64,000 nt of DNA from an alpha proteobacterium U9-1i (GTDB lineage Bacteria; Pseudomonadota; Alphaproteobacteria; Caulobacterales; Aquidulcibacteraceae). The stretch covers positions 496,001 through 560,000 of the forward strand of contig BBSY01000002.1 of the NCBI GenBank assembly GCA_000974665.1, read 5' to 3'. Both the position numbers and the translations under genes were made by a program. Below the pieces are notes generated by a model. It made no database searches. It had not been told where the DNA came from and saw nothing but the letters and a program-made list of their open reading frames with translations. Positions within the stretch are counted from its first letter, which is position 1, and each line of letters begins with the position of its first letter. Below are positions 49,548 to 61,964 of the stretch, in pieces.

Positions 49548-51377
49548 TTACTCCGCCGCCATCGCTGCGCGTGCGGCTTCGAGGCGTTGGCCGAGAGCGG
49601 CGTGCTGGTCCCACAATTTCTTCGGCAGTCTATCGCCGAAGCGCGTGTAGAAGGCCGGGATCAGCGACGCTTCTTCGCTCCACACATCCAGGTCGACGCT
49701 GGTCAACAACTTCAATGCATCAGCGCTGAGATCGAGGCCGGAGGTGTCCAGCGCCTCCGGAGTCGGCACGTATCCGATCGGCGTTTGTCGCGCTTCGGCG
49801 GTCCCATCGATGCGTTCGGAAACCCACTTCAAAACGCGGCTGTTGTGGCCAAACCCGGGCCAAACGAATTTTCCGTCCGGCCCTTTGCGGAACCAGTTCA
49901 CGAAGAAAATCTTCGGCAGCTTCGATTGGTCGGCCTTTTCGCCGACGGCCAGCCAATGCGCGAAATAATCGCCCATGTTGTAGCCGCAGAACGGAAGCAT
50001 CGCGAACGGATCGCGGCGCAATTCGCCAACCTTGTTTTCTGCCGCGGCGGTGCCTTCGCTCGCCACGTTCGAGGCGAGGAACACGCCGTGCTCCCAATCA
50101 AACGATTGAGTCACCAGCGGCACGGCGCTGGCGCGGCGGCCGCCAAACAGGATCGCATCGATCGGCACGCCTTTGGGGTCCTCCCATTCCGGCGCGATCA
50201 CCGGGCATTGCGACGCCGGCGCGGCGAAGCGCGCGTTCGGGTGCGCGGCCGGGAATTTCGAATCCGGCAGCCAAGCATTGCCCTGCCAATCGGTCAGGTT
50301 CGGAGGGGGCGGATCGGAGAGGCCTTCCCACCACACATCGCCGTCCCCCGTCAGCGCCACGTTCGTATAAACGACGTTGGCTTTCAGTGTGTCGACGGCG
50401 CTCTTGTTGGTCTTCGCGCCCGTGCCCGGCGCGACGCCGAAGAAACCTGCTTCCGGATTGATCGCATACAAGCGGCCATCGTCGCCGAAGCGCATCCAGG
50501 CGATGTCATCGCCAATCGTCTCGGCTTTCCAGCCCGGCATTGTCGGCTGCAGCATCGCCAGATTGGTTTTGCCGCACGCGCTTGGGAACGCGGCCGCAAC
50601 GTACTTCACGCGGTTTTCAGGCGAGGTGAGCTTGAGGATCAGCATGTGCTCGGCCAGCCAACCCTCATCGCGCGCCATGACCGACGCGATGCGCAGCGCC
50701 AAGCACTTCTTGCCAAGCAGCGCGTTGCCGCCGTAGCCGGACCCGTAGCTCCAAATTTCGCGCGTTTCCGGGAAGTGGACGATCCACTTGTCGTCGTTGC
50801 ACGGCCAGGCGACGTCCTTTTGGCCTTTCTCGAGCGGCGCGCCGAGCGTGTGCACAGCCGGCACGAAGAAGCCGTCATCGCCCAGCATGTCGAGCGCCGG
50901 CTTGCCCATGCGCGTCATCACGCGCATCGAAATGGCAACGTAGGCGCTGTCGGTGATCTCGACGCCGAGCTGGGAAATGTGCGAGCCGATCGGGCCCATG
51001 CAGAACGGCACCACATACATCGTTCGGCCGCGCATCGCGCCCTTGAACAAGCCGCCGAGACGTTCGCGCATTTCGACCGGGTCTTGCCAATTGTTCGTTG
51101 GGCCAGCCTCCGCTTCGGTCTGCGAGCAGATGAAGGTGCGGCTCTCAACGCGCGCCACATCGCGCGGATCGGAAGCGGCATAGAAGGAGTTCGGACGCTT
51201 AGCGGGGTTGAGACGCTTCAGCGTGCCTGTCGCCTCAAGCTCGCGCGTGAGCCGCTCCCACTCCAGATCGGATCCGTCACACCAATAGACGCGGTCCGGC
51301 TGCGTCAGTTCAGCGATCTCGTTTACCCAAGCAATAAGCTTCGCGTGGCGCGTGGGCGCCTGAGAATTGGTGTTCAC
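49548..51377 (-). CDS. pckG: Phosphoenolpyruvate carboxykinase (GTP)
   Basis: Gluconeogenic enzyme that converts oxaloacetate to PEP with GTP. The 609-residue protein has the kinase loop [13 protein letters not shown] with the reactive Cys, the PEP/OAA-binding [19 protein letters not shown]-type region and the guanine-binding [11 protein letters not shown] and [13 protein letters not shown] segments. Start is GTG at 51377, five bases after GGAGG; that Shine-Dalgarno is also part of a hairpin (51384-51399), suggesting translational control. Upstream gene is divergent. Confidence 0.96.
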
Positions 51378-51383
51378 CGAATC

Positions 51384-51399
51384 CCTCCGATTGCGGAGG
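51384..51399 (-). promoter_or_regulatory. Hairpin covering the pckG Shine-Dalgarno
   Basis: On the minus strand CCTCCG and CGGAGG pair around a four-base loop; the 3' arm contains the GGAGG ribosome-binding site of pckG, seven bases before its GTG. The remaining 51400-51678 between pckG and the next gene holds no further feature I can support. Confidence 0.5.
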
Positions 51400-51678
51400 C
51401 CGCCACCAGAGCGCCGCCGCACCGATTGTCATGTCTATTTTTGCGGCAACCCGCGTACGCCTGTCCCAATTCCTGCGGAAGGCGCCTACGAGTCAAACGC
51501 AATTTGCCAATCACCTGCATTGCCTGGGCCAATGACACCGGTAGCATAATGTTTCGCGGTTCTGCTTTGCAGGTTCACGGGGGCACACGCAGAAACTGGC
51601 GCCCTCGCAGCCACCGGACAGGTGCTTACGGCGCCGAATGGTCTGGGGTATCGATCATGCTGTGGCCTGGGTGTTGGA

Positions 51679-52392
51679 ATGAGATTGGATTGGATCATTG
51701 CGCTTCTCTTGGCCGGCTGCGCCGGCGCCCAAGCGGCCGACCCACCGCCGAGCGCGTCCCAGGTGTTCGACGCCTATCTCGCCGCCCGCGGCGGGCAGGC
51801 GGCGCTTGAGAGCCTGGGTGTGATCGAGCGTGAAGGCTGGATTAGCGTCGACACTGGGCCGAACGGCTTGCTCGCGGGGAGCTACCACACCTGTATTCGC
51901 TACCCAGACCGGGTGACCATCGAAATCGATGCCGGCCAGTGGCAGGTCGCGCAAACCTTGCGGGGTGACGGCGCGTTCGAATGCGAAGCTCGGTTCGAAA
52001 ATTGCCGGGTCGCGAGCGATGCCGTGCGCGAAGAGCTCACGTCCACGGCCAGTCAGGCCAACAAGGATATGCTCGACCGTGCCGCTGAGTGGCGTGCGGC
52101 GGCCGTCAGTTTAAGCATTGATGGCCGCGCGTGGCGTCTAACGCTCAAGGACGGTTGGTGGGCCGAAGTGGCGCGCGATGATGGTCGCCTCCGCGGGCTC
52201 GGCGTAAGCGAGCGCATGCGCAGGCTCGGGCAATGGCGCGCCATTTCAGGAATGACTTTCCCCCACCGCCTCGAGGACTACCTGATCCAGCCCAACGGCG
52301 ACTTCGAGTGGCGCAACACGGTCCACCTCCGCGACATTCGCGTGAGTGAAACGCCTTCGGCTTGGTGTACCGCGCGCTTCGGCGCCGATTAG
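51679..52392 (+). CDS. Predicted lipoprotein, unknown function
   Basis: 237 residues with signal MRLDWIIALLLAGCAGAQAA (lipobox LAGC, Cys14). The body contains SQVFDAYLAARGGQAALESL, a segment common in exported LolA-like or DUF proteins, then GYREGWISV-type beta segments and a C-terminal MTFPHRLEDYLIQPNG. This resembles lipoproteins of the LolA/LppX-like superfamily only at pattern level. Convergent with the DUF885 gene, sharing TTAG at 52389-52392. Confidence 0.65.
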   Translation: MRLDWIIALLLAGCAGAQAADPPPSASQVFDAYLAARGGQAALESLGVIEREGWISVDTGPNGLLAGSYHTCIRYPDRVTIEIDAGQWQVAQTLRGDGAFECEARFENCRVASDAVREELTSTASQANKDMLDRAAEWRAAAVSLSIDGRAWRLTLKDGWWAEVARDDGRLRGLGVSERMRRLGQWRAISGMTFPHRLEDYLIQPNGDFEWRNTVHLRDIRVSETPSAWCTARFGAD

Positions 52393-54218
52393 CTCGCTTG
52401 CGCCGCCGACCATTGCGTGACGAGGCTTTCCATCACGGACAGCGGCACTGAGCCGTTCGTCAGCACCGTGTCGTGGAAGCCTTTGATGTCGAACCGGTCG
52501 CCCATCGCCGCGCGGGCGGCTTCACGGGCGCGGAGGATCGCTACCTTGCCAACCATGTAGCTGCACGCTTGGCCCGGCCAGCAGGCATAACGCTCGATCT
52601 CCGTCGTCACGGCGCTCACTTGGTCTCCGGTCGCCTCCGCCATCGATTGGATCGCTTGTTCGCGACTCCAGCGTTTGGCGTGCATGCCGGTGTCGACGAC
52701 CAGGCGCGAAGCGCGGAACGTCGCCGATTGCAGGTAACCCAAACGTCCAAGCGGATCGTCGGCGTACACGCCCATCTCGTCGGCGAGTTGTTCGGAATAG
52801 AGGCCCCAGCCTTCGCCGTAGGCGCCGAAGCCAAGCAACGCACTGCGGATGAACGGCAGTTCGCCTGCTTCTTGTTGGATCGAGCCCTGCCAATGATGGC
52901 CCGGGATGCCCTCATGATAGCTAAGCGTGGGCAGAGAGAACTTCGGCCATTCCGCCGTATCGCGGAGGTTAATGTAATATGTGCCGGGCCGCGAGCCATC
53001 GATCGAGGCGCGCTGGTAATAGCCTCCAGGTGAGCCGGCCTCGGTGAAAACCGGGACGCGCTTGATCTCCAGCGGCGCGCGCGCAAGCACGCCGCAGACT
53101 TCCGGCATACGCGCCGTAATCGCCGCGCATTGTGCGTTGAGGTCACGCAACAATTGTTCGCGGCCGGCATCGGTGTTCGCGTAAAGCTGATCGGGGCGGC
53201 GCGACACTTGCGTCACGCGCTGCGCGACGGTGCCGCTGGTGAGCCCTTGCGCGCGCAGGATCGCATCCATCTCGCTTTGCAGCTGGGCGATCAGCTCGAG
53301 GCCCAGATTGTGGATCTCGTCCGGCGTCATGTTGGTGGTGGTGCGTTGGCGCAGCGCAACCGCGTACATTTCCTCGCCATTCGGCAACCGCCAGCAGCCG
53401 GCATCGTGCACCGCTTGCGGGCGTACGGCGGCGATCGCATCGATTTGGCGTTGATATGCCGGCAACACTTCGTCGCGCACGATTGTCTCAGCGCGCGACA
53501 CAAATCCCGCGCGATCGGCCTCTGGAATCTCGGCGATGTCCGGCAAGCGGCGCACCAGCGATTGCATCAGCACCGTTTGCGCGGGGGCGTTCGAAGCGAA
53601 CTGGCGCAATTGCGCCGTCGCGCCGTCGAGCGCGAAGTCCGGCGGGATGACGCCGGCGGCCGCATCCTCTGCGATGACGGCGCTTTCCTGATCCAGTTGG
53701 CGCGCATAGCCAGAGAGGCGTGAGAGATACGCTTCCGCTTCATCGCGCGTCGTCATCGGATGGCGGCTGTCGAGGAAGTCTGGCCCTTGCGTATATGCGC
53801 CATAGAGCTGGGTGACCGTGTAAGGCGTCGTCGCGCCGCCGCCCGCTTCAAAATTCAGGTTCGCCAGCGAGTTTTCAAACGACGTCTTCACAACGTCGTA
53901 CGTGACTTGATCGCGAGCTTCCAATTGCTCGCGATTGATAGCGTTCAATCCGGCGATGGCGGCCTCAGTGATTTCTTTCGTGCGAGCCTTGCCCGCTTTC
54001 GAATTGTCGGACACGCGATCGACGTACCGGCCGCCAGCTTGTTCTTCGCTGACGCCGAGGCTCGTGCAACGCTCCGGGGATTCACGCAGAATGTCGGTCG
54101 AGAGCTGCGTCAGGAGCTCATTAAGCCTGCCTGCCGGCGGATCGTTCTGGCAGCCAGCGGCGGCAAGCGCGAGCGTGGCGGCACCAGCGCCCAGAGCGGC
54201 GCGTCGTGTCATCTGCAT
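52389..54218 (-). CDS. DUF885 family exported metallopeptidase-like protein
   Basis: 609 residues. The N-terminus MQMTRRAALGAGAATLALAA is Tat/lipoprotein-like with a Cys at AAGCQ. The central and C-terminal part matches DUF885: LGVSEEQAGGRYVDR, the zinc-site motif SYHEGIPGHHWQ, FGAYGEGWGLYSEQLADEMG, and WPGQACSYMVGKVAILR. DUF885 proteins are gluzincin-like peptidases of poorly known substrate. Start at 54218 follows GAGGGG; a longer frame runs antisense to the next gene and is rejected. Confidence 0.88.
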   Translation of the reverse strand: MQMTRRAALGAGAATLALAAAGCQNDPPAGRLNELLTQLSTDILRESPERCTSLGVSEEQAGGRYVDRVSDNSKAGKARTKEITEAAIAGLNAINREQLEARDQVTYDVVKTSFENSLANLNFEAGGGATTPYTVTQLYGAYTQGPDFLDSRHPMTTRDEAEAYLSRLSGYARQLDQESAVIAEDAAAGVIPPDFALDGATAQLRQFASNAPAQTVLMQSLVRRLPDIAEIPEADRAGFVSRAETIVRDEVLPAYQRQIDAIAAVRPQAVHDAGCWRLPNGEEMYAVALRQRTTTNMTPDEIHNLGLELIAQLQSEMDAILRAQGLTSGTVAQRVTQVSRRPDQLYANTDAGREQLLRDLNAQCAAITARMPEVCGVLARAPLEIKRVPVFTEAGSPGGYYQRASIDGSRPGTYYINLRDTAEWPKFSLPTLSYHEGIPGHHWQGSIQQEAGELPFIRSALLGFGAYGEGWGLYSEQLADEMGVYADDPLGRLGYLQSATFRASRLVVDTGMHAKRWSREQAIQSMAEATGDQVSAVTTEIERYACWPGQACSYMVGKVAILRAREAARAAMGDRFDIKGFHDTVLTNGSVPLSVMESLVTQWSAAQAS

Positions 54219-54354
54219 GTGATTTCCCCTCACGAAGGTGCGGCGGCCATTTAAGCCCGCGCGCTTTGCGCGGCAATCGTCGCACGACGAACGCCGGACG
54301 CCGCAATCGACTGGGCGATGGCTCGGATCGCGCCAAAATAGCCTTGGAGGCCCC

Positions 54355-54810
54355 ATGCTCGCGGCAATCTTGTTTTCTCTCGCTGTCCCGACTGCGTCCT
54401 GCGACAAGCCGACGGCGCTCCAAGAGTTGCGAGCGATGCATGCGGCGGTGATCGCCCGGCACCTGGACGATGACGTGGATGCGTGGATGGCGACGGAAGC
54501 GGAGACCATGATCGTCGGTTCGCGCGGTGTATTGGCGGAGAGTGGCCCAGAACGCGCCACTGGCAGGCGCGCCTATCTCGGCGCAACGGAGTTTGAAGTT
54601 TACCGGGACATGGTCGAGCCCATCGTGCGGGTGTCAGACGATTGCACTTTGGGCTGGGTGATGGTTCAGGTTGAGGCGCAAGGCGCGCGGCGTGATGAAC
54701 GCGGCGTCGCAACGCCCTTCGGCTTTCAGTCGTCGTGGGTGGAATTGTACGAGCGCCACGACGGCGCCTGGCGTGCGGTCGGAAACGTTTCCAACTTCGC
54801 CGAGCGTTAG
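54355..54810 (+). CDS. Exported SnoaL/NTF2-like protein
   Basis: 151 residues: signal sequence MLAAILFSLAVPTASC, then LQELRAMHAAVIARHLDDDVDAW, GWVMVQVEAQGARRDE and a C-terminal FQSSWVELYERHDGAWRAVGN, the helix-sheet pattern of the NTF2/SnoaL fold (DUF4440 type). Probably periplasmic; role unknown. The ATG at 54355 follows GGAGG. Convergent with xth, sharing TTAG at 54807-54810. Confidence 0.7.
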   Translation: MLAAILFSLAVPTASCDKPTALQELRAMHAAVIARHLDDDVDAWMATEAETMIVGSRGVLAESGPERATGRRAYLGATEFEVYRDMVEPIVRVSDDCTLGWVMVQVEAQGARRDERGVATPFGFQSSWVELYERHDGAWRAVGNVSNFAER

Positions 54811-55601
54811 AGCTTCAACCCTGCGACGACGGGCACGTGATCGCTGGGCCGCTCCCAAGAGCGGCAGGGCACATGGATTTCAAACGCTTCAGCGCGCGAG
54901 GCGGGCGCGAGATCGTCACTGGCCCAAATGTGATCGAGCCGCCGGCCGCGGTTGTTCTTGGTCCAATCCGGGCTGCGATAGCTCCACCATGTAAATAGGC
55001 GCTCCGGCTCCGGGCGATGCGTGCGCGCCAAATCGATGAACCCGCCGTCCTCGCGGATGGCGTTCAAGCGATCTGTTTCCATTGGCGTGTGCGAGACCAC
55101 GTCCAGCAATTGCTTGTGGCTCCAGACATCGTTTTCGCCCGGCGCGACGTTGAAATCGCCAGCGATCACAAGTGGCCCCTTGCCGCGGCGCTTCTTGTAA
55201 ATGCGCCGCATGCGATCGAGCACGTCGAGCTTGTGCTTGAATTTTTCGTTGTTCACCGGATCAGGCACGTCGGCGCCGGCGGGCACGTACAGCGAATGCA
55301 CTTCAACGCCGTCGATCAAAGCCGCCGCAGAGCGCGCTTCTTTCTTCGGGCAAAGCGTGGTGACGTCGAGCGGCTCAAGCTTCAGCTTCGAGACGATGGC
55401 GACGCCGTGCCAGCCCTTCTGCCCAACCACATGCATGTGCTTGTAGCCGGCCTCCTTGAACGCCTTCTCCGGAAACTCCCCGTTCCGGCACTTGATCTCC
55501 TGCAAGCACAGCACGTGCGGCTGCGCCTCCTTGAGGAAGCGCGTCACCTGCCCAATGCGCAGGCGCACGGAATTGATGTTCCAAGTGGCGATCTTGAGCA
55601 T
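54807..55601 (-). CDS. xth: Exodeoxyribonuclease III
   Basis: AP endonuclease/3'-repair exonuclease of base-excision repair. The 264-residue protein has KIATWNINSVRLR, the metal-binding Glu in LCLQEIKCR, the Tyr region SLYVPAGADV, GDFNVAPGENDVW with catalytic Asp/Asn, and the C-terminal RPSDHVPVVAGL with catalytic His. Start at 55601 gives the standard N-terminus. The sRNA candidate lies just upstream on the same strand. Confidence 0.96.
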   Translation of the reverse strand: MLKIATWNINSVRLRIGQVTRFLKEAQPHVLCLQEIKCRNGEFPEKAFKEAGYKHMHVVGQKGWHGVAIVSKLKLEPLDVTTLCPKKEARSAAALIDGVEVHSLYVPAGADVPDPVNNEKFKHKLDVLDRMRRIYKKRRGKGPLVIAGDFNVAPGENDVWSHKQLLDVVSHTPMETDRLNAIREDGGFIDLARTHRPEPERLFTWWSYRSPDWTKNNRGRRLDHIWASDDLAPASRAEAFEIHVPCRSWERPSDHVPVVAGLKL

Positions 55602-55640
55602 GGGGGAGAGATGGCCTGAGCGAGGCGGATTCGCGAGAGC

Positions 55641-55798
55641 AAAAACAGCGGAGCCCCGATCGTGTTCACGACCGGGGCTCGCGCGTTGCGCCATGAGGGG
55701 AGGCGCAAATTAGCCGGCAGGGGAATACCGGCAAGGCCACCACGCTGGATCCGTCAGCGGGGGGACGACGCAAATCCAGGGGGATAGCGGCGACCTAC
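55641..55798 (-). ncRNA. Candidate small RNA with three C-rich hairpin loops
   Basis: About 158 nt between lolA and xth. Predicted start is near 55798, seven bases after a TATATG -10. Hairpins in order on the minus strand: 55745-55779 (outer stem CTGGAT/ATCCAG, inner CGTC/GACG, loop with CCCCCC); 55713-55732 (stem GCCGG/CCGGC, loop TATTCCCCTG); 55686-55708 (stem TTGCGCC/GGCGCAA, loop TCCCCTCAT); then a long terminator stem (55651-55680) followed by TTTTT at 55645-55641. Repeated C-rich loops able to pair with Shine-Dalgarno sequences are a known design of alphaproteobacterial trans-acting sRNAs. No matching named family was confirmed. Confidence 0.75.
55651..55680 (-). terminator. Terminator of the small RNA
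   Basis: GAGCCCCG pairs with CGGGGCTC and, after one mismatch, TCGTG pairs with CACGA around a TT loop. On the minus strand a T5 run follows after a few bases. It precedes xth, so xth is transcribed separately or by read-through. Confidence 0.85.
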
Positions 55799-55804
55799 CC
55801 GTTG

Positions 55805-55833
55805 CATATACGCCACAAGGGCGAAAAAATCAA
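55805..55833 (-). promoter_or_regulatory. Sigma70-type promoter of the small RNA
   Basis: On the minus strand TTGATT (55833-55828) and TATATG (55810-55805) are separated by exactly 17 bases. No gene between here and xth could use it, so it supports a separate transcript. Confidence 0.7.
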
Positions 55834-55891
55834 GGGACGGTTAACGAAACAACTTGCGTGTTGCGGCAAAATTTTCTTGCCGCGCGCGAGT

Positions 55892-56578
55892 TTACGGGCG
55901 TCCGCGCCGGCGGCTGTCCAGCATGTCCTCCAGCCGGAACAGCGATCGATCGAGGCTCGCAGGGCGGCTGATGTCGGAGAGCGCGATACGCGTGCGCGCG
56001 CCGGTCATGTCCACCACATCCCATGAACGCAGCTCATTGCCGGCGCCGTAGAAATGCATCGTGATTGCGCCATCGGTTTGCCCCGAACGATCGCGCGCGG
56101 TGACCAGCGTCCACTCGCCTTGGCGGGACACGCGCACGATGCGCGCATCGCGGGCAAGATTGACTTGGCTACGCAGCACCAAGTTCAACGGCGTTGAACG
56201 CAGCGGCGTGCGATCCGTTGTACGCAGCGCCGAATCACGCAGTGCGACGACGCTGCCGTCAGACACAATCAACAACGACGACGGTGGATCGTATTCGAAG
56301 CGTAGCTTGCCGGGTCGCTGCAGATAGAACGCGCCTTGCGCCCGGCTTCCGTCCGGCGACACCTGCACGAACCTACCCTGCATCGCGGCGACGCCGTTCA
56401 ATGCGTTGTTGGCGGCGGCGATCGCTGCGTCGCGTTCCGCACCCTCAAGCGTTTGCAGCCCGGCGATGGCGGAGGGCGGCGTACGTGGACGTAGGTCCGC
56501 GCCAGGCGCCTGGGCGGCGGCGGGCAGGGCGAGCGAGATCGCGGCGAGGCCAGCGAAAAGGGCGGTCCGTCTGTTCAT
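55892..56578 (-). CDS. lolA: Outer-membrane lipoprotein carrier LolA
   Basis: Periplasmic chaperone that carries lipoproteins from LolCDE to the outer membrane. The 228-residue protein has a signal (RRTALFAGLAAISLALPAAA, cleaved after AQA), then MQGRFVQVSPDGSRAQGAFYLQRPG (in two blocks), KLRFEYDPPSSLLIVSDGS, and SWDVVDMTGARTRIALSD. Start at 56578 is preferred; ATG at 56587 is also possible. In related genomes it lies directly next to ftsK; here about 3 kb separates them. Confidence 0.92.
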   Translation of the reverse strand: MNRRTALFAGLAAISLALPAAAQAPGADLRPRTPPSAIAGLQTLEGAERDAAIAAANNALNGVAAMQGRFVQVSPDGSRAQGAFYLQRPGKLRFEYDPPSSLLIVSDGSVVALRDSALRTTDRTPLRSTPLNLVLRSQVNLARDARIVRVSRQGEWTLVTARDRSGQTDGAITMHFYGAGNELRSWDVVDMTGARTRIALSDISRPASLDRSLFRLEDMLDSRRRGRP

Positions 56579-56658
56579 GAGGGTCATGTGGCCTAAAGCC
56601 ATGGCGGAAAAAAGGGTTCCGCCGGGGCGAGATCGCGGCTTTTTGGTTCAGACGCCGT

Positions 56659-57459
56659 TCAGGCCGCCGCCCGCCAGCGGCTGGGTGTGGCGCCGAACGC
56701 CACTTTGAAGCTGGCGTTGAAATGGGACAGGTCGCTGAAGCCTGAGCCATAGGCGATCTGCGCGACAGGTGCGCTGGTCTCAACCAACATACGAGCGGCA
56801 GCGGCGAGCCGTGTGTGCAGCACGTACTGCGCCGGCGATTCGCCCGTCACCGTTTTGAACAGGCGCGCGAAGTGAAAGCGGCTGAGGCCAGCAACCGAGG
56901 CCAAGGTATCAAGCGCACAGCAGCCAGCGAAGTTCGCCTGCACGTGTCGCACGGCGTTCAGCACGCGGCGCGTGTCGGCGGTGGAGACGCTGCGCGTCGG
57001 CCCGCTCGTGGTGGCGAAGGCGGCGCTGGCGACATCGAACGCTGCAAGCACATCGCCCCGCGCCGCGGCGCGGAGCAGCGGCGCGAATGCCGATGCGGGG
57101 CGCGACGGCGGCAGCGCACTCAACGCGAACTCCGCGCGGTCACGCCCGTGCGCGTCAGCGATTTCGTCGAGCAATTCCGAGCCGAAGAAGAGCGCGAGGC
57201 GCTTGTTGCTTGCCGCACCTGCGTCTGTGCAGGAAAACGATTCGCCGCGATTGGCGAAGATCACGGCGCCCGGCAGCGCCAGCGCCGCGCCATGGGCGCC
57301 GCGATATTCAAACGCGCCGTCGAGCACGAGGGCGATGCCGGCTTCACCGTAGACGCCGTCGCCGGCGCCATGCGGCGTGCAGCGCAATTCGCTGACGCGG
57401 AAGCTGTCGGGCGCTGCGCCGAGGCCGTAGCGGTCGCGTGGCGGGAGGGGGTCGAGCAT
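56659..57459 (-). CDS. AraC-family transcriptional regulator
   Basis: 266 residues. The N-terminal cupin-like part (FRVSELRCTPHGAGDG, GAFEYRGAHGAALALPGAV) is followed by the C-terminal double helix-turn-helix: LDTLASVAGLSRFHFARLFK and IAYGSGFSDLSHFNASFKVA ending FGATPSRWR. The start at 57459 has a weak ribosome site; an in-frame ATG at 57531 exists. Target unknown; it belongs to the accessory block between lolA and ftsK. Confidence 0.88.
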   Translation of the reverse strand: MLDPLPPRDRYGLGAAPDSFRVSELRCTPHGAGDGVYGEAGIALVLDGAFEYRGAHGAALALPGAVIFANRGESFSCTDAGAASNKRLALFFGSELLDEIADAHGRDRAEFALSALPPSRPASAFAPLLRAAARGDVLAAFDVASAAFATTSGPTRSVSTADTRRVLNAVRHVQANFAGCCALDTLASVAGLSRFHFARLFKTVTGESPAQYVLHTRLAAAARMLVETSAPVAQIAYGSGFSDLSHFNASFKVAFGATPSRWRAAA

Positions 57460-58256
57460 CGTCACGCCGCAAGTTTCGCAGCGACAACGCTTGCAAGCAA
57501 GGCGATGTCGCGCTTGTGAACGCGAGAGCAAGATTCCCTTAGGCGATAGGCGCGCGAGCGCGCATGCGGCGAACGAAATTGTTCGCTACTCGCTATTTCC
57601 TACGCGCTCCCAATGAGCCCGCCTTCGCAGCTTTGCTGCTTCGGCGCGGGCCGAGGAGCCGGGGCGCGTTGGACGCGCCGGGTAGTCCGAATGGCGCCGC
57701 CTCTTGCGAGACAGGCGCGCGCGTTCAACGCGCCCCGTCGCGATCGTTTTTCCTGGCGGGTCCGTCAAACAGGGCCGTGTTTCAAGCTCACGGACGGTCC
57801 CCGACGCGTGCGAGCCTCCGCCGTGGAAGCTCGGTCTCCTCCCGTGGTTAGCGCTTACGCTGCTCTCCCACGGGCTTCGGCGTTCTCTGCTCGCCGTCTC
57901 GCGACGGAATTGCGTTGTCTCGCGTCGGGACGCCCCCCTTCGCAAAACGCCGCTCTTGACCGGTAGTGATCAAGATACGGAACAGCGCCTTCACGCTCGA
58001 TCACGTCCCTCGCGTTCGGGTCGCTCGGCTAGCAACGAGAACCTCCTCTACGAGGGATGCGTGCAGTATCGCTCAGGTTTGGGAGGGGGCGGATAGATTT
58101 TTTGTGGGGCGAGGGGAAACAAAGGCTTGGGGGATTTGGGGCGGGGATAGTGGCGTTTGCGCGGAACAGAGGAGCCGTACAGGAGCGACTCGCAGTGAGC
58201 GCGCGCTCGAAATTTCGGAATCGGTATATGCTCACAGACGATCAAAGGTGTCGCGT
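57460..58256. other. Gene-poor accessory region with inverted repeats
   Basis: About 800 bp with no gene I can support. It contains a small hairpin GCGAAC...GTTCGC (57569-57586) and a long inverted repeat GGGGCGCGTTGGACGCGC (57661-57678) with GCGCGTTCAACGCGCCCC (57719-57736), 17 of 18 matching. A minus-strand open frame (57586-57945, 119 codons) and several plus-strand frames look like high-GC artefacts or a degraded repeat. The part after 58000 is more AT-rich and Gly/Trp-rich when read forward. Confidence 0.45.
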
Positions 58257-59531
58257 ATGCAAAATCCGCAGTTTCTTTTCACTTCGCACAGGCAAGATTT
58301 CACCACCCGCTTGACGCAGGTACTGAGCCCTTCGAGCGAAGTAACATCCCCAGAACATCTCAAAGGCCGTAAGGACGACTACGAAGGTGCATTGCAGGCA
58401 CTGGAAATGCCAGGGCGACACCTGGTCATTTCAGGTCTGCGGGGAGTTGGAAAATCATCGCTGGCGCTGACAACCGCAATGACTTTGTCGCGAGCAAAGT
58501 CGCGAAGGGACCTACCTTACGTTCAGTGTGATCAAGATGCGACGTTTGCCGTCGTCATTCGCGATCTCTGCAATCAAGCGAACGGATCGAATGCTTTGCG
58601 CCGCCAGCGGTCCGAGACGGTCGGTGGCGGGGCAAGTTTGCCGGGCTTTCTCAATACTCAAGCAAAGAGTGCCACGACGACGAGGGAGGCCTATCCGGCG
58701 CCCAGCTCCTTGAACGAAGCAGCGATGTTTATCCAGCAGGTCGCGGAACGAACGGGAAAGCGTGTTTTCGTCGTTGATGAACTCGACTTGATCCAGGACG
58801 AAGACACAAAACGCCAATTCAGTCAGCTTCCGAAGCTCCTTTCGGCGCTTGGAGTCGAAGCGCAGTTCATATTTTGCGGTACAGGAGCCAGCGCCACGGA
58901 ATTGCTTAGTGCGCACCCGTCGGCATTCAGGCAATTCCACCCGATCAGCTTGGAGCGCCTGAAAATCCAGCCCCGCCTAGACATCATCGACGACGCTGCA
59001 AAGGCGATAGGGATCGATATTGGACGCAACTCGCGCATAAGAATTGCCCAAATTTCCGATGGATTCCCCTACTTCATCCATTTGATTTGCGAGAAGCTAC
59101 TTTGGTCTTGGTTCGACGATGCCGACCGCGACCAGCAACGCACCTCTCCGAGACACTATGAGGCTGCTGTGGCGAAGGCGTCGGAGACGGCAGAACCGGA
59201 GTTAAAGGAGCCGTACGAGCGAGTTGTTCAGAAACAAAAGCTCGACGGCGAAATCATCGTTTGGGCGATGGCGGATGGAAGTTCGCTAGAAAAAAACGTT
59301 GAGGGGGCGTTCCGCGACTATCAGGCGTTGGCTCTCGCTCACGGCGACGAAGTTCTGACGCGCGAGCAGCTGAATTCGAGGCTGAACAACTTCAAACGAG
59401 ACTCGTACGGGCGCATTCTGAAGAGTGACAAGCGCGCTTGGTATGAATTTACCGAGAAGCGAATGCGTGGATACGCTCGCTTGCGGGCAGCGCGCCGAAA
59501 CGTAATGCTAAAGGGCGACCATCCTGGGTAG
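58257..59531 (+). CDS. Orphan AAA-type ATPase with C-terminal unknown domain
   Basis: 424 residues. P-loop HLVISGLRGVGKSSLALTTA (Walker A at about 60-68), Walker B RVFVVDELDLIQ (169-180), sensor-like QFIFCGTGAS (203-), and a later SDGFPYFIHLICEKLL helix typical of AAA_16/Orc-like or STAND-type ATPases. The region after about residue 300 is helical and basic, with no family recognised. Start at 58257 follows AAAGG; the longer frame upstream reads through low-quality sequence. Codon use is less GC-biased than its neighbours, suggesting recent acquisition. Functions from DNA transactions to defence are possible. Confidence 0.75.
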   Translation: MQNPQFLFTSHRQDFTTRLTQVLSPSSEVTSPEHLKGRKDDYEGALQALEMPGRHLVISGLRGVGKSSLALTTAMTLSRAKSRRDLPYVQCDQDATFAVVIRDLCNQANGSNALRRQRSETVGGGASLPGFLNTQAKSATTTREAYPAPSSLNEAAMFIQQVAERTGKRVFVVDELDLIQDEDTKRQFSQLPKLLSALGVEAQFIFCGTGASATELLSAHPSAFRQFHPISLERLKIQPRLDIIDDAAKAIGIDIGRNSRIRIAQISDGFPYFIHLICEKLLWSWFDDADRDQQRTSPRHYEAAVAKASETAEPELKEPYERVVQKQKLDGEIIVWAMADGSSLEKNVEGAFRDYQALALAHGDEVLTREQLNSRLNNFKRDSYGRILKSDKRAWYEFTEKRMRGYARLRAARRNVMLKGDHPG

Positions 59532-59534
59532 CCC

Positions 59535-61964
59535 CTAATCCTCGCCCCGCACGTCCAGCAGAATCTCGCGCTTTCCGGCGGCGTTGGCCATCGAGATGAT
59601 GCCTTCTTTTTCCATCTGCTCGATCAACGTGGCGGCACGGTTGTAGCCGATTGATAGCCTACGTTGCAGGTAGGACGTGCTGGCTTTGCGGTCGCGGCGG
59701 ACGATCTCGACGGCGCGGTCGAACATGTCGCCTTCGCCGCCTTCGCCGTCGAACAATTCCGGTTCGCCGTCGGCGCCGTTTTCGTTCGGCTCCTCGGTGA
59801 CGTCCTGGCGATATTGCGGCGCGCCTTGCGCTTTCAGCATGTCGACGACGCGTTCGACTTCGGCGTCGGTCACGTAGGGGCCGTGCAGACGGCGGATGCG
59901 TCCGCCGCCGGCCATGAACAGCAAATCGCCCATGCCGAGGAGTTGTTCGGCGCCTTGCTCACCCAAGATGGTGCGTGAGTCGATCTTGCTGGTGACCTGG
60001 TAGGAGATGCGGGTCGGGAAGTTGGCCTTGATCGTGCCGGTGATGACATCGACCGAGGGGCGTTGCGTCGCCATGATGACGTGGATGCCGGCGGCGCGCG
60101 CCATTTGCGCGAGACGCTGCACGGCGGCTTCGATTTCCTTGCCCGCCGTGATCATCAGATCGGCCATCTCGTCGATGACGACGACGATGTAGGGCATTTG
60201 CTCGAGCGGCAGCTCGCGGGTTTCGTAGATCGGCTCGCCGCTGGTTGGGTCGAAGCCCGCGTGCACGGTGCGCTCCAGCTTTTCGCCGCGCTCAAGCGCT
60301 TCGCGCACACGTTCGTTGTAGCCGTTGATGTTGCGCACGCCGAGCTTGGACATGCGGCGATAGCGGTCCTCCATCTCGCGCACGGTCCATTTGAGCGCGA
60401 CGACGGCTTTCTTCGGATCGGTGACGACCGGGTGCAAGAGGTGCGGGATGCCCTCATAGACGCTGAGCTCCAGCATCTTGGGGTCGATCATGATGAAGCG
60501 GCACTCGTCCGGCGTGTGCTTGTACAAGAGCGACAAGATCATCGCGTTGATGCCGACGGATTTGCCCGAGCCGGTGGTGCCGGCGATGAGCAAGTGCGGC
60601 ATCTTCGTGAGATCGGCGGCGAAGGGATCGCCTTCGATCGTCTCGCCAAGCGCGAGCGGCAGATCGCCCTGCGTGCCGACGAAGCTGGTGCTGTTCAGAA
60701 GCGAGCGCAGATACACGGTTTCGCGCTTGCCGTTCGGCAGCTCGATGCCGATGGCGTTGCGGCCGGGGATCACGGCGACGCGCGCGGCGGTGGCGGACAT
60801 GGAGCGGGCGATGTCGTCGCTGAGGCCGATGACGCGTGAGGATTTGACGCCGGCGGCGGGCTCGAACTCGAACAGGGTGACGACCGGGCCGGGGCGTGCG
60901 GAGAGCACTTCGCCTTGAACGCCGAAGTCCGCCAGCACGCCTTCGAGCTGACGGCTCATCGCGTGCAACGTCTGCGCATCGGTTTGGTTCACGCGCTGCT
61001 TGGGCGTCGAGAGCAATTCCGGTTCCGGCAATTCGAAATCGCTGAAGCCAGGATTGCTTGCGTGCGCTTCCTTCCGTGGTTTTTCCGCGCGCGGCTTCTC
61101 TTGGCGGCGCTGCTGGTGGGTTTCCTGTTCGGGCTGCGCCATGCGCGGCGCGCGTTCGGGGCGCGGCTCACGCACCGGCGCTTGCGGGCGCGGGGCGCGC
61201 GGGCGCTCGACGCGCTCCTCGCGCGCGTCGTCCTGGTGTTGTGTCGCGCGCGCGTAGGCGTTGTGCGGATCGACGGCTTCGTCGTCGCGGCGGGTTTTGT
61301 CGGCGGCGTAGGTGATGGCGCGTTGTGCCGCGCCGCCAGCGCCGATCGCCGCGCGACGCGCGAGCGAAGCGGCGTTCTTCACGTCGTCGGGGCGCACCTG
61401 GAACGCCCAGCCAGTGGCGATCACGCCAAGTGCGACGCAAAGAAAACCTGTGAGGATGTGCGGGAACGGCAAGCCCGGCGCGGACATCAGCCCGCTGAGC
61501 AGGCCCGCGAGGCCATCGCCGAACATGCCGCCGAAACCGGCCGCGAGCGGCCAGCCTTCGGGCGTCGGGATCGTCGATGCGGCGGCGGCCAGCAAAAACA
61601 CGCCAAAGCCGCCAGCCATAAGACGGTGAATATCGATGCGCGCAACGAGGCGGCGACGGTAAATGCGCAAAGCGCCTGCAATCATTAATGCGGCGAACGC
61701 CAAAGGTGCTGCCGCGCCAAAAGATTGCACAGCAAGGTCAGCGACGAACGCGCCTGGCCCGCCGAACAGATTGTGCGTCGGCCCGTCGGTGGCGACGTTG
61801 AGACTTGGATCTTCCGGCGAGTAGGTGAGCACGGCCCCCAGGCCGTACGCGCCAAGGGCCGCAGCGCCAACGGACGCAGCCGCCCGCTTCAACGCCAAAC
61901 GCGCCGCAGCGGAGCTGGCGACAGAGGGCATACGCCCCTCGGAGGGATAGGCTTGGTCTGTCAT
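59535..61964 (-). CDS. ftsK: DNA translocase FtsK
   Basis: Divisome-linked DNA pump for chromosome dimer resolution and terminus segregation. 809 residues: four membrane helices in about 30-200, a Pro/Arg/Glu-rich linker about 215-310, the alpha/beta RecA-like motor with Walker [17 protein letters not shown], Walker [24 protein letters not shown], and the gamma winged-helix domain ([19 protein letters not shown]) that reads KOPS sites. ATG at 61964 lacks a good ribosome site; ATG at 61931 follows GAGGGG and may be the true start. Convergent with the AAA ATPase, three bases apart. Confidence 0.96.

Follow-up and report, generated by a model that had tools for sequence, protein, structure and literature searches.

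The window, that is, the whole stretch of 64,000 nucleotides that was analysed, contains a gap between lolA and xth in which a promoter, an RNA of about 155 nt and a terminator can be read directly on the minus strand (55833-55641). This stretch is very probably a regulatory RNA gene, a longer relative of RusT of Caulobacter. The features are given below, with row counts for a sequence-only alignment of 29 loci (A2, see next section).

55892..56602 (-), lolA, upstream neighbour (105.5 bits for PF03548, above the cut-off of that model; 59.5 bits for TIGR00547, below the cut-off of the latter)
55853..55863 (-), conserved block CAACACGCAAG upstream of the -35 box, candidate operator
55828..55833 (-), -35 box TTGATT, part of a CTTGA-like block kept in relatives
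55805..55810 (-), -10 box TATATG, 17-nt spacer to the -35 box (direct reading; genus-conserved block GTGGCGTAnAT)
55641..55798 (-), predicted sRNA gene, long-form RusT homologue (5' end predicted; homologues in relatives)
55735..55795 (-), SL1, outer stem GGTCGCCGC / GCGTGGTGGCC enclosing an inner hairpin (predicted fold, covariation)
55779..55786 (-), TATCCCCC, C5 run in the SL1 internal loop (unpaired in the predicted fold)
55753..55769 (-), SL1 apical loop GTCGTCCCCCCGCTGAC with C6 (C6 or more, then GCT, in 29/29 A2 rows)
55713..55732 (-), SL2 GCCGGTATTCCCCTGCCGGC, the RusT seed hairpin (TCCCCT in 29/29 A2 rows)
55686..55708 (-), SL3 TTGCGCCTCCCCTCATGGCGCAA (predicted fold)
55641..55680 (-), SL4, terminator of the Rho-independent type, GCTGTTTTT tail included (stem 55680-55651, covariation)
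54807..55601 (-), xth, downstream neighbour, coding for exodeoxyribonuclease III (186.8 bits for TIGR00633, above the cut-off of that model)

A small RNA within a promoter-terminator frame had been claimed by the first-pass annotation of this DNA, and the promoter, the RNA of about 155 nt (predicted +1 near 55798, minus strand) and the strong terminator bear this out. Since a consensus sigma-70 scan of positions 50000-60000 reported no promoter, TTGATT/TATATG included, and the boxes are weak in comparison to the consensus, it is their conservation that argues for the promoter. The expression ACA(N0-2)[GAC]CAA, picked after inspection of the sequences, is found upstream of the -35 box at 27 of 45 loci of the order, versus a mean of 1.2 in mononucleotide shuffles. 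Caulobacter shares with the window RNA both the promoter block and, upstream, an ACA-N-GCAA block. Further upstream of the promoter, an inverted repeat CGGCAAGAAAATTTTGCCG (55864-55882, minus strand) precedes CAACACGCAAG, and at the matching position the C. vibrioides record L104 carries TTGTGACATTCTCACAACAGGCAAG; judged by the letters, repeat and block could possibly be an operator shared with that record.

Fold and covariation of the predicted RNA

The fold predicted for 55642-55803 has a free energy of -82.1 kcal/mol as compared to -61.2 kcal/mol (sd 3.97) for dinucleotide shuffles (z -5.3), and none of 200 shuffles folded as well. Folding had been proposed as a check on the first-pass annotation, and its outcome, four predicted stem-loops with an energy below all 200 shuffles, is in agreement with it. 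The same annotation had counted three C-rich loops. Those of SL1 (CCCCCC at 55764-55759), SL2 (C4 in the loop TTCCCCTG, 55725-55718) and SL3 (C4 in the loop CTCCCCTC, 55702-55695) stand, but a fourth run, the C5 of the SL1 internal loop, had been overlooked. The motif ATCCCC of this internal loop is present in 27 of the 29 A2 rows, and YCCCTC of SL3 in 26. The SL4 stem (55680-55651) comprises 13 pairs, nine of them GC, followed by GCTGTTTTT; a scan of 10 kb gave 12 terminator-like sites, a number to be read against the 11.7 sites that shuffles yield, and SL4 has the most pairs of all 12.

A blastn search with the region found it in 30 of 61 genomes, 27 of which belong to the 30 genomes of the same genus (own genome counted); the other relatives come from two further genera of the family and from one genus of another family (32-nt core only). 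Three same-genus genomes (G021, G026, G028) gave no blastn match, and five genomes of another genus of the family (g20) gave no match to the covariance model R1 described below, owing to either assembly gaps or true loss in both cases. A2 consists of the 30 blastn loci minus the truncated L020, and a second, model-fitted alignment (A4) contains 45 loci. Compensatory two-sided changes were present at 18 of 41 pairs on A2, where partners slid by one to three columns gave only 4 to 6 such pairs, the test being somewhat favoured as the structure was derived from A2 itself; on A4 they were present at 38 of 41 pairs, a count biased by the model fitting. Neither value was reached by any of 500 shuffles. 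The SL1 outer stem contributed 7 of 10 pairs on A2 and 10 of 10 on A4, and SL4 contributed 8 of 11 and 11 of 11. The compensatory stem changes, whose absence from relatives had been named earlier as a possible refutation, are thus present. The claim of a structured non-coding RNA also holds: the RNA is conserved, its loops are C-rich, its stems covary and it is very probably non-coding.

A search of Rfam 15, which had likewise been proposed, gave no match at the gathering threshold, neither in the window nor at 20 related loci. At a permissive threshold the two best candidates by E-value were rejected as well: P17 reached 21.2 bits against a family threshold of 45 and lies on the opposite strand, and P15 reached 17.7 bits against one of 70.

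Homology with RusT of Caulobacter

The first-pass annotation had listed the RNA as unannotated. It is, however, no orphan but a homologue of RusT (CCNA_R0199), which the accessible parts of PMC11005374 describe as a 118-nt RNA of C. crescentus with four stem-loops, encoded between lolA and xth; PMC5988900 and PMC5172544 mention CCNA_R0199 as well. According to the same parts of PMC11005374, the structure of RusT was probed experimentally, its promoter is functional in a reporter, Hfq binds at SL3 and NtrX represses the promoter. RusT is induced about 5-fold by dipyridyl (iron starvation) and about 9-fold by zinc, and it represses TonB-dependent receptors and ompW in an Hfq-dependent manner, C53 in the SL2 loop taking part in the pairing with the receptor and ompW leaders. 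Deletion of rusT caused no growth defect under the dipyridyl and zinc stresses described there, and homologues are described in Caulobacteraceae (PMC11005374, in excerpt).

The two RNAs resemble each other in their location in the lolA-xth gap on the same strand, in the promoter block, in four stem-loops of which the last is the terminator (predicted for the window RNA) and in the UCCCCU core of the SL2 loop, which is identical. They differ in length (118 nt for RusT versus a predicted 155 nt or so), in SL1, a hairpin that in the window RNA is large, consists of two parts and carries the C5 and C6 runs, unlike that of Caulobacteraceae RusT, and in the sequence of SL3, the hairpin that binds Hfq in Caulobacter. 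The RusT numbering was fitted on the C. vibrioides record L104, not on NA1000: when 118 nt are counted back from its U-run, nt 45-57 fall on the SL2 loop, and position 53 is a C for four of six possible ends.

A covariance model (R1) was built from A2, whose 29 loci come from the genus and family of the source organism plus one other family and include no Caulobacteraceae. In the window itself, a member of the model, R1 matches 55641-55813 with 154.5 bits. It was tried on seven records, labelled C. vibrioides, Phenylobacterium or Brevundimonas. Scores for C. vibrioides were 36.0 bits for L104 (E 2e-8, in 56 kb) and 34.8 bits each for L139 and L159; three Phenylobacterium records gave 33.0 to 38.0 bits, and one Brevundimonas-labelled record only 22.7 bits. 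The modest scores for C. vibrioides gain firmness because the matches sit in the lolA-xth gap. A 30-mer taken from SL2/SL3 of the Caulobacteraceae form identified 88 loci, mostly labelled Caulobacter, Phenylobacterium or Caulobacteraceae, with a few vaguer or odd labels. Within 600 nt, 79 of these lie between lolA and xth, nine beside one of the two genes (eight of them near the end of the available sequence) and none beside neither. Taken together, the window RNA and the Caulobacter RNA appear to be of common descent. We therefore regard it as probable, with good though not full confidence, that a trans-acting sRNA homologous to RusT is encoded here by a gene of its own, the RNA being longer than RusT (about 155 versus 118 nt) and probably representing the ancestral form.

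Proposed mode of action

Homology with RusT means that regulator, chaperone, targets and working loop of such an RNA are already known in one species. By analogy, the C-rich loops of the window RNA would pair, assisted by Hfq, with G-rich ribosome-binding sites; a translational repressor that pairs with Shine-Dalgarno regions had also been supposed in the first-pass annotation. SL2 is likely the working loop because it is homologous to SL2 of RusT, and it may act on the ribosome-binding sites of outer-membrane receptor genes under iron stress; the SL1 loop, and perhaps SL3, could provide further pairing sites for G-rich leaders. The genome encodes hfq (G000:C3:581386) and ntrY (G000:C3:585280) about 4 kb apart, so that the gene for the chaperone of RusT lies close to that for the sensor partner of its regulator NtrX.

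The genome contains 32 matches to the TonB plug domain. The start regions of 30 of these receptors showed stronger loop pairing than those of 53 control genes from the window (SL2 p ~0.001), the starts being chosen by slightly different rules in that the receptor rule adds a signal-peptide term. As large a receptor-control difference was obtained with 3 of 200 shuffled SL2 loops. The receptors also have the stronger Shine-Dalgarno sequences (median -7.05 versus -5.0). When the genes were loosely matched for Shine-Dalgarno strength (25 + 26 genes), SL2 gave p=0.005; in a stricter matched set (17 + 14 genes) SL1 and SL2 gave p=0.137 and SL3 p=0.008, and in a regression that included Shine-Dalgarno strength the SL2 effect was -1.64 +- 0.86 kcal/mol. 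The pairing signal is suggestive only, and much of it is accounted for by Shine-Dalgarno strength. In the leader of the TonB receptor gene L212 (G000:C2:722944), the start codon is immediately preceded by GCGGGGAATAC, which can pair with the SL2 loop by complementarity; its pairing with SL2 (-22.9 kcal/mol) is the best among the 30 receptors, three others lying within 1 kcal/mol.

It is also conceivable, if unlikely, that a stand-alone RNA in the place of RusT acts mainly via SL1, as a protein-binding or structural element and not as an antisense loop. The SL1 loop and its closing bases read GCGUCGUCCCCCCGCUGAC with near invariance in the genus and, similarly, GCGUUGCCCCCCCGCUUGC in many other families, which is more rigid than is usual for a seed with multiple targets. 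Long complementary sites in the own genome, moreover, barely exceed a reversed-pattern control (besides the RNA itself, 13 versus 12 for SL2 and 20 versus 14 for SL1), and no long unique target stands out there for either hairpin. Against such a role of SL1 speak the pairing function already known for the SL2 loop of RusT (PMC11005374, in excerpt) and the C-rich loops of GsrN, CcnA and sX13, which pair with G-rich leaders or are needed against them, as far as the accessible parts of the reports cited below go. We thus prefer a trans-acting RNA that pairs through its C-rich loops.

GsrN of Caulobacter exposes a loop with six tandem C that pairs with G-rich leaders such as that of katG (PMC5869019, in excerpt). 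Its homologues are recognised, according to the same excerpt, by a sigma-EcfG promoter and by their proximity to sigT-phyR. The window RNA lies at another locus, its immediate neighbours being lolA and xth; its promoter boxes read TTGATT/TATATG. CcnA, also of Caulobacter, acts with a CCCC loop on GGGG in the ctrA and gcrA 5' UTRs (PMC8959179, in excerpt). It was a first guess on account of this loop and was dropped because its gene sits in the chromosomal replication origin as stated there; the immediate neighbours of the window RNA are lolA and xth. The gammaproteobacterial sX13 of Xanthomonas has three stems with three C-rich loops, targets mRNAs with G-rich motifs and is thought to be Hfq-independent (PMC3771888, in excerpt). 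Its likeness to the window RNA may be one of mode of action; matches to the family model R2 (see below) outside Alphaproteobacteria stop at 34.4 bits.

Distribution and history of the long form

To our knowledge, few regulatory RNAs have been traced across Alphaproteobacteria. In searches limited to genomes with a completeness of 80 or more and with strict filters, R1 matched 150 of 299 genomes of the order (36 of 51 genera) at E 0.001, the other 149 giving no match under these settings. Neighbours were assessed for 39 loci; these were no random sample but were selected to cover many genera and a range of scores. Six secondary matches, all of them antisense to the main match at their locus, were left out of the count. 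Among loci with E<1e-6, 29 of 31 have one or both of lolA and xth as same-strand neighbours: lolA upstream at 73-175 nt in 22, xth alone, downstream at 44-755 nt, in seven. At E of 1e-6 or more, one of eight (L099) lies beside lolA; the other seven, which have neither gene beside them, are probably false. The position between lolA and xth, suspected earlier to be conserved, is indeed kept in relatives.

Beyond the order, R1 matched 23 of 387 genomes of the class at E 0.001, five of which belong to the order. R2, a covariance model built from A4, matched 58 of 385 (four from the order) at E 1e-4; under strict filters 327 gave no match at this threshold. In a control search over the phylum, R2 matched 32 of 299 genomes; six were outside the class and the best of these reached 34.4 bits, a noise level close to the R1 scores for C. 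vibrioides (34.8-36.0). Above 41 bits, the class search with R2 left 28 genomes outside the order. Loci of 27 of these and of one further genome from the phylum search were assessed. At 23 of these 28 loci (22 of 27, plus L195), lolA precedes the RNA and/or xth follows it on the same strand, in 12 family handles and at larger distances of up to about 1 kb; at L194, L198, L238, L243 and L249 this is not so. As judged from model scores and gene order, the RusT family is spread, patchily, over many other families of Alphaproteobacteria, with most of the putative members beside lolA and/or xth.

These loci also bear on two further explanations. The RNA lies between two genes of the same strand and its terminator ends it before xth, as would be expected if it acted in cis on xth, as a leader or attenuator, or if it were a 3' end processed from the lolA mRNA. 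However, its own promoter block is kept while the downstream gene varies: a uppP-like gene follows at L067, another gene precedes xth at L061 and L190, about 0.9 kb of other sequence intervenes at L017, and neither lolA nor xth was found near L093 and L094. In Caulobacter, moreover, RusT exists as a distinct RNA of 118 nt whose promoter works in a reporter (PMC11005374, in excerpt). A cis-acting or processed RNA is therefore very unlikely. We give slightly less credit still to convergence, that is, an unrelated C-rich sRNA that came to lie at the place of RusT by chance, and hold it to be highly improbable: the SL1 halves of the window RNA and of Caulobacter RusT are strongly unlike and RusT scores only modestly with the model, but R1 matches C. 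vibrioides without having been trained on Caulobacteraceae, promoter block, SL2 and gene order are common to both, and many intermediate forms exist in other families. A small protein gene such as the 35-codon TTG frame at 55773-55666 hardly merits consideration, since close relatives have anything from 6 to 8 C in the run and loop lengths vary freely, changes that would shift the frame, while the stems covary.

With a stand-alone RusT homologue as the preferred reading, the distribution of SL1 suggests a history. Outside the order, 24 of 28 loci have a run of C5 or longer before G in SL1 (L249, L252, L253 and L254 do not). Of the loci found with the Caulobacteraceae 30-mer, 86 extend far enough upstream to show the SL1 region, and a single one of them has five or more consecutive C there; this count is no census of the family because the 30-mer selects one Caulobacteraceae type. 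On A4, the SL1 C run is present in 32 of 45 rows; of the 13 rows without it, 12 have the 30-mer or the family handle f3, which presumably stands for Caulobacteraceae, and one is L093. Because the loop is present within the order as well as beyond it, the simplest history is one of loss in Caulobacteraceae, and the C-rich SL1 hairpin is probably absent from Caulobacteraceae RusT for this reason. On balance, we lean towards a view in which RusT is the reduced descendant of an old alphaproteobacterial RNA with two modules, whose SL1 C6-8 loop would have read a second set of G-rich leaders or bound a protein, and in which Caulobacteraceae lost SL1. If this holds, the only studied member displays half of the function of the family.

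The results suggest a RusT family of greater age and breadth than has been described, with a second C-rich loop, strongly conserved, that the relatives of Caulobacter no longer have. Its reach beyond Caulobacteraceae and the usual presence of a large SL1 with a near-invariant C6-8 loop appear to be new; searches of open-access articles listed no report of a wider RusT family or of the SL1 module. A characterised iron-stress RNA is hereby linked to putative homologues in many families, tied by gene order, and a covariance model is available for a family without a match in Rfam 15. SL1 represents a conserved module that the model organism Caulobacter cannot reveal.

Two minor observations concern the neighbourhood of individual loci. 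The RNA-like matches L093:2501-2635 and L094:2482-2637 are possible relocated copies; their neighbours, judged by eye from the open reading frames, are presumably phosphoglucosamine-mutase-like and leucyl-aminopeptidase-like genes. Between the RNA and xth, L061:1835-2431 (-) and L190:1821-2444 (+) each encode a protein of some 200 aa that has no match in Pfam or NCBIfam. The two proteins come from distant genomes, are alike by eye and both end in RWPxGxAGxxxNxF.
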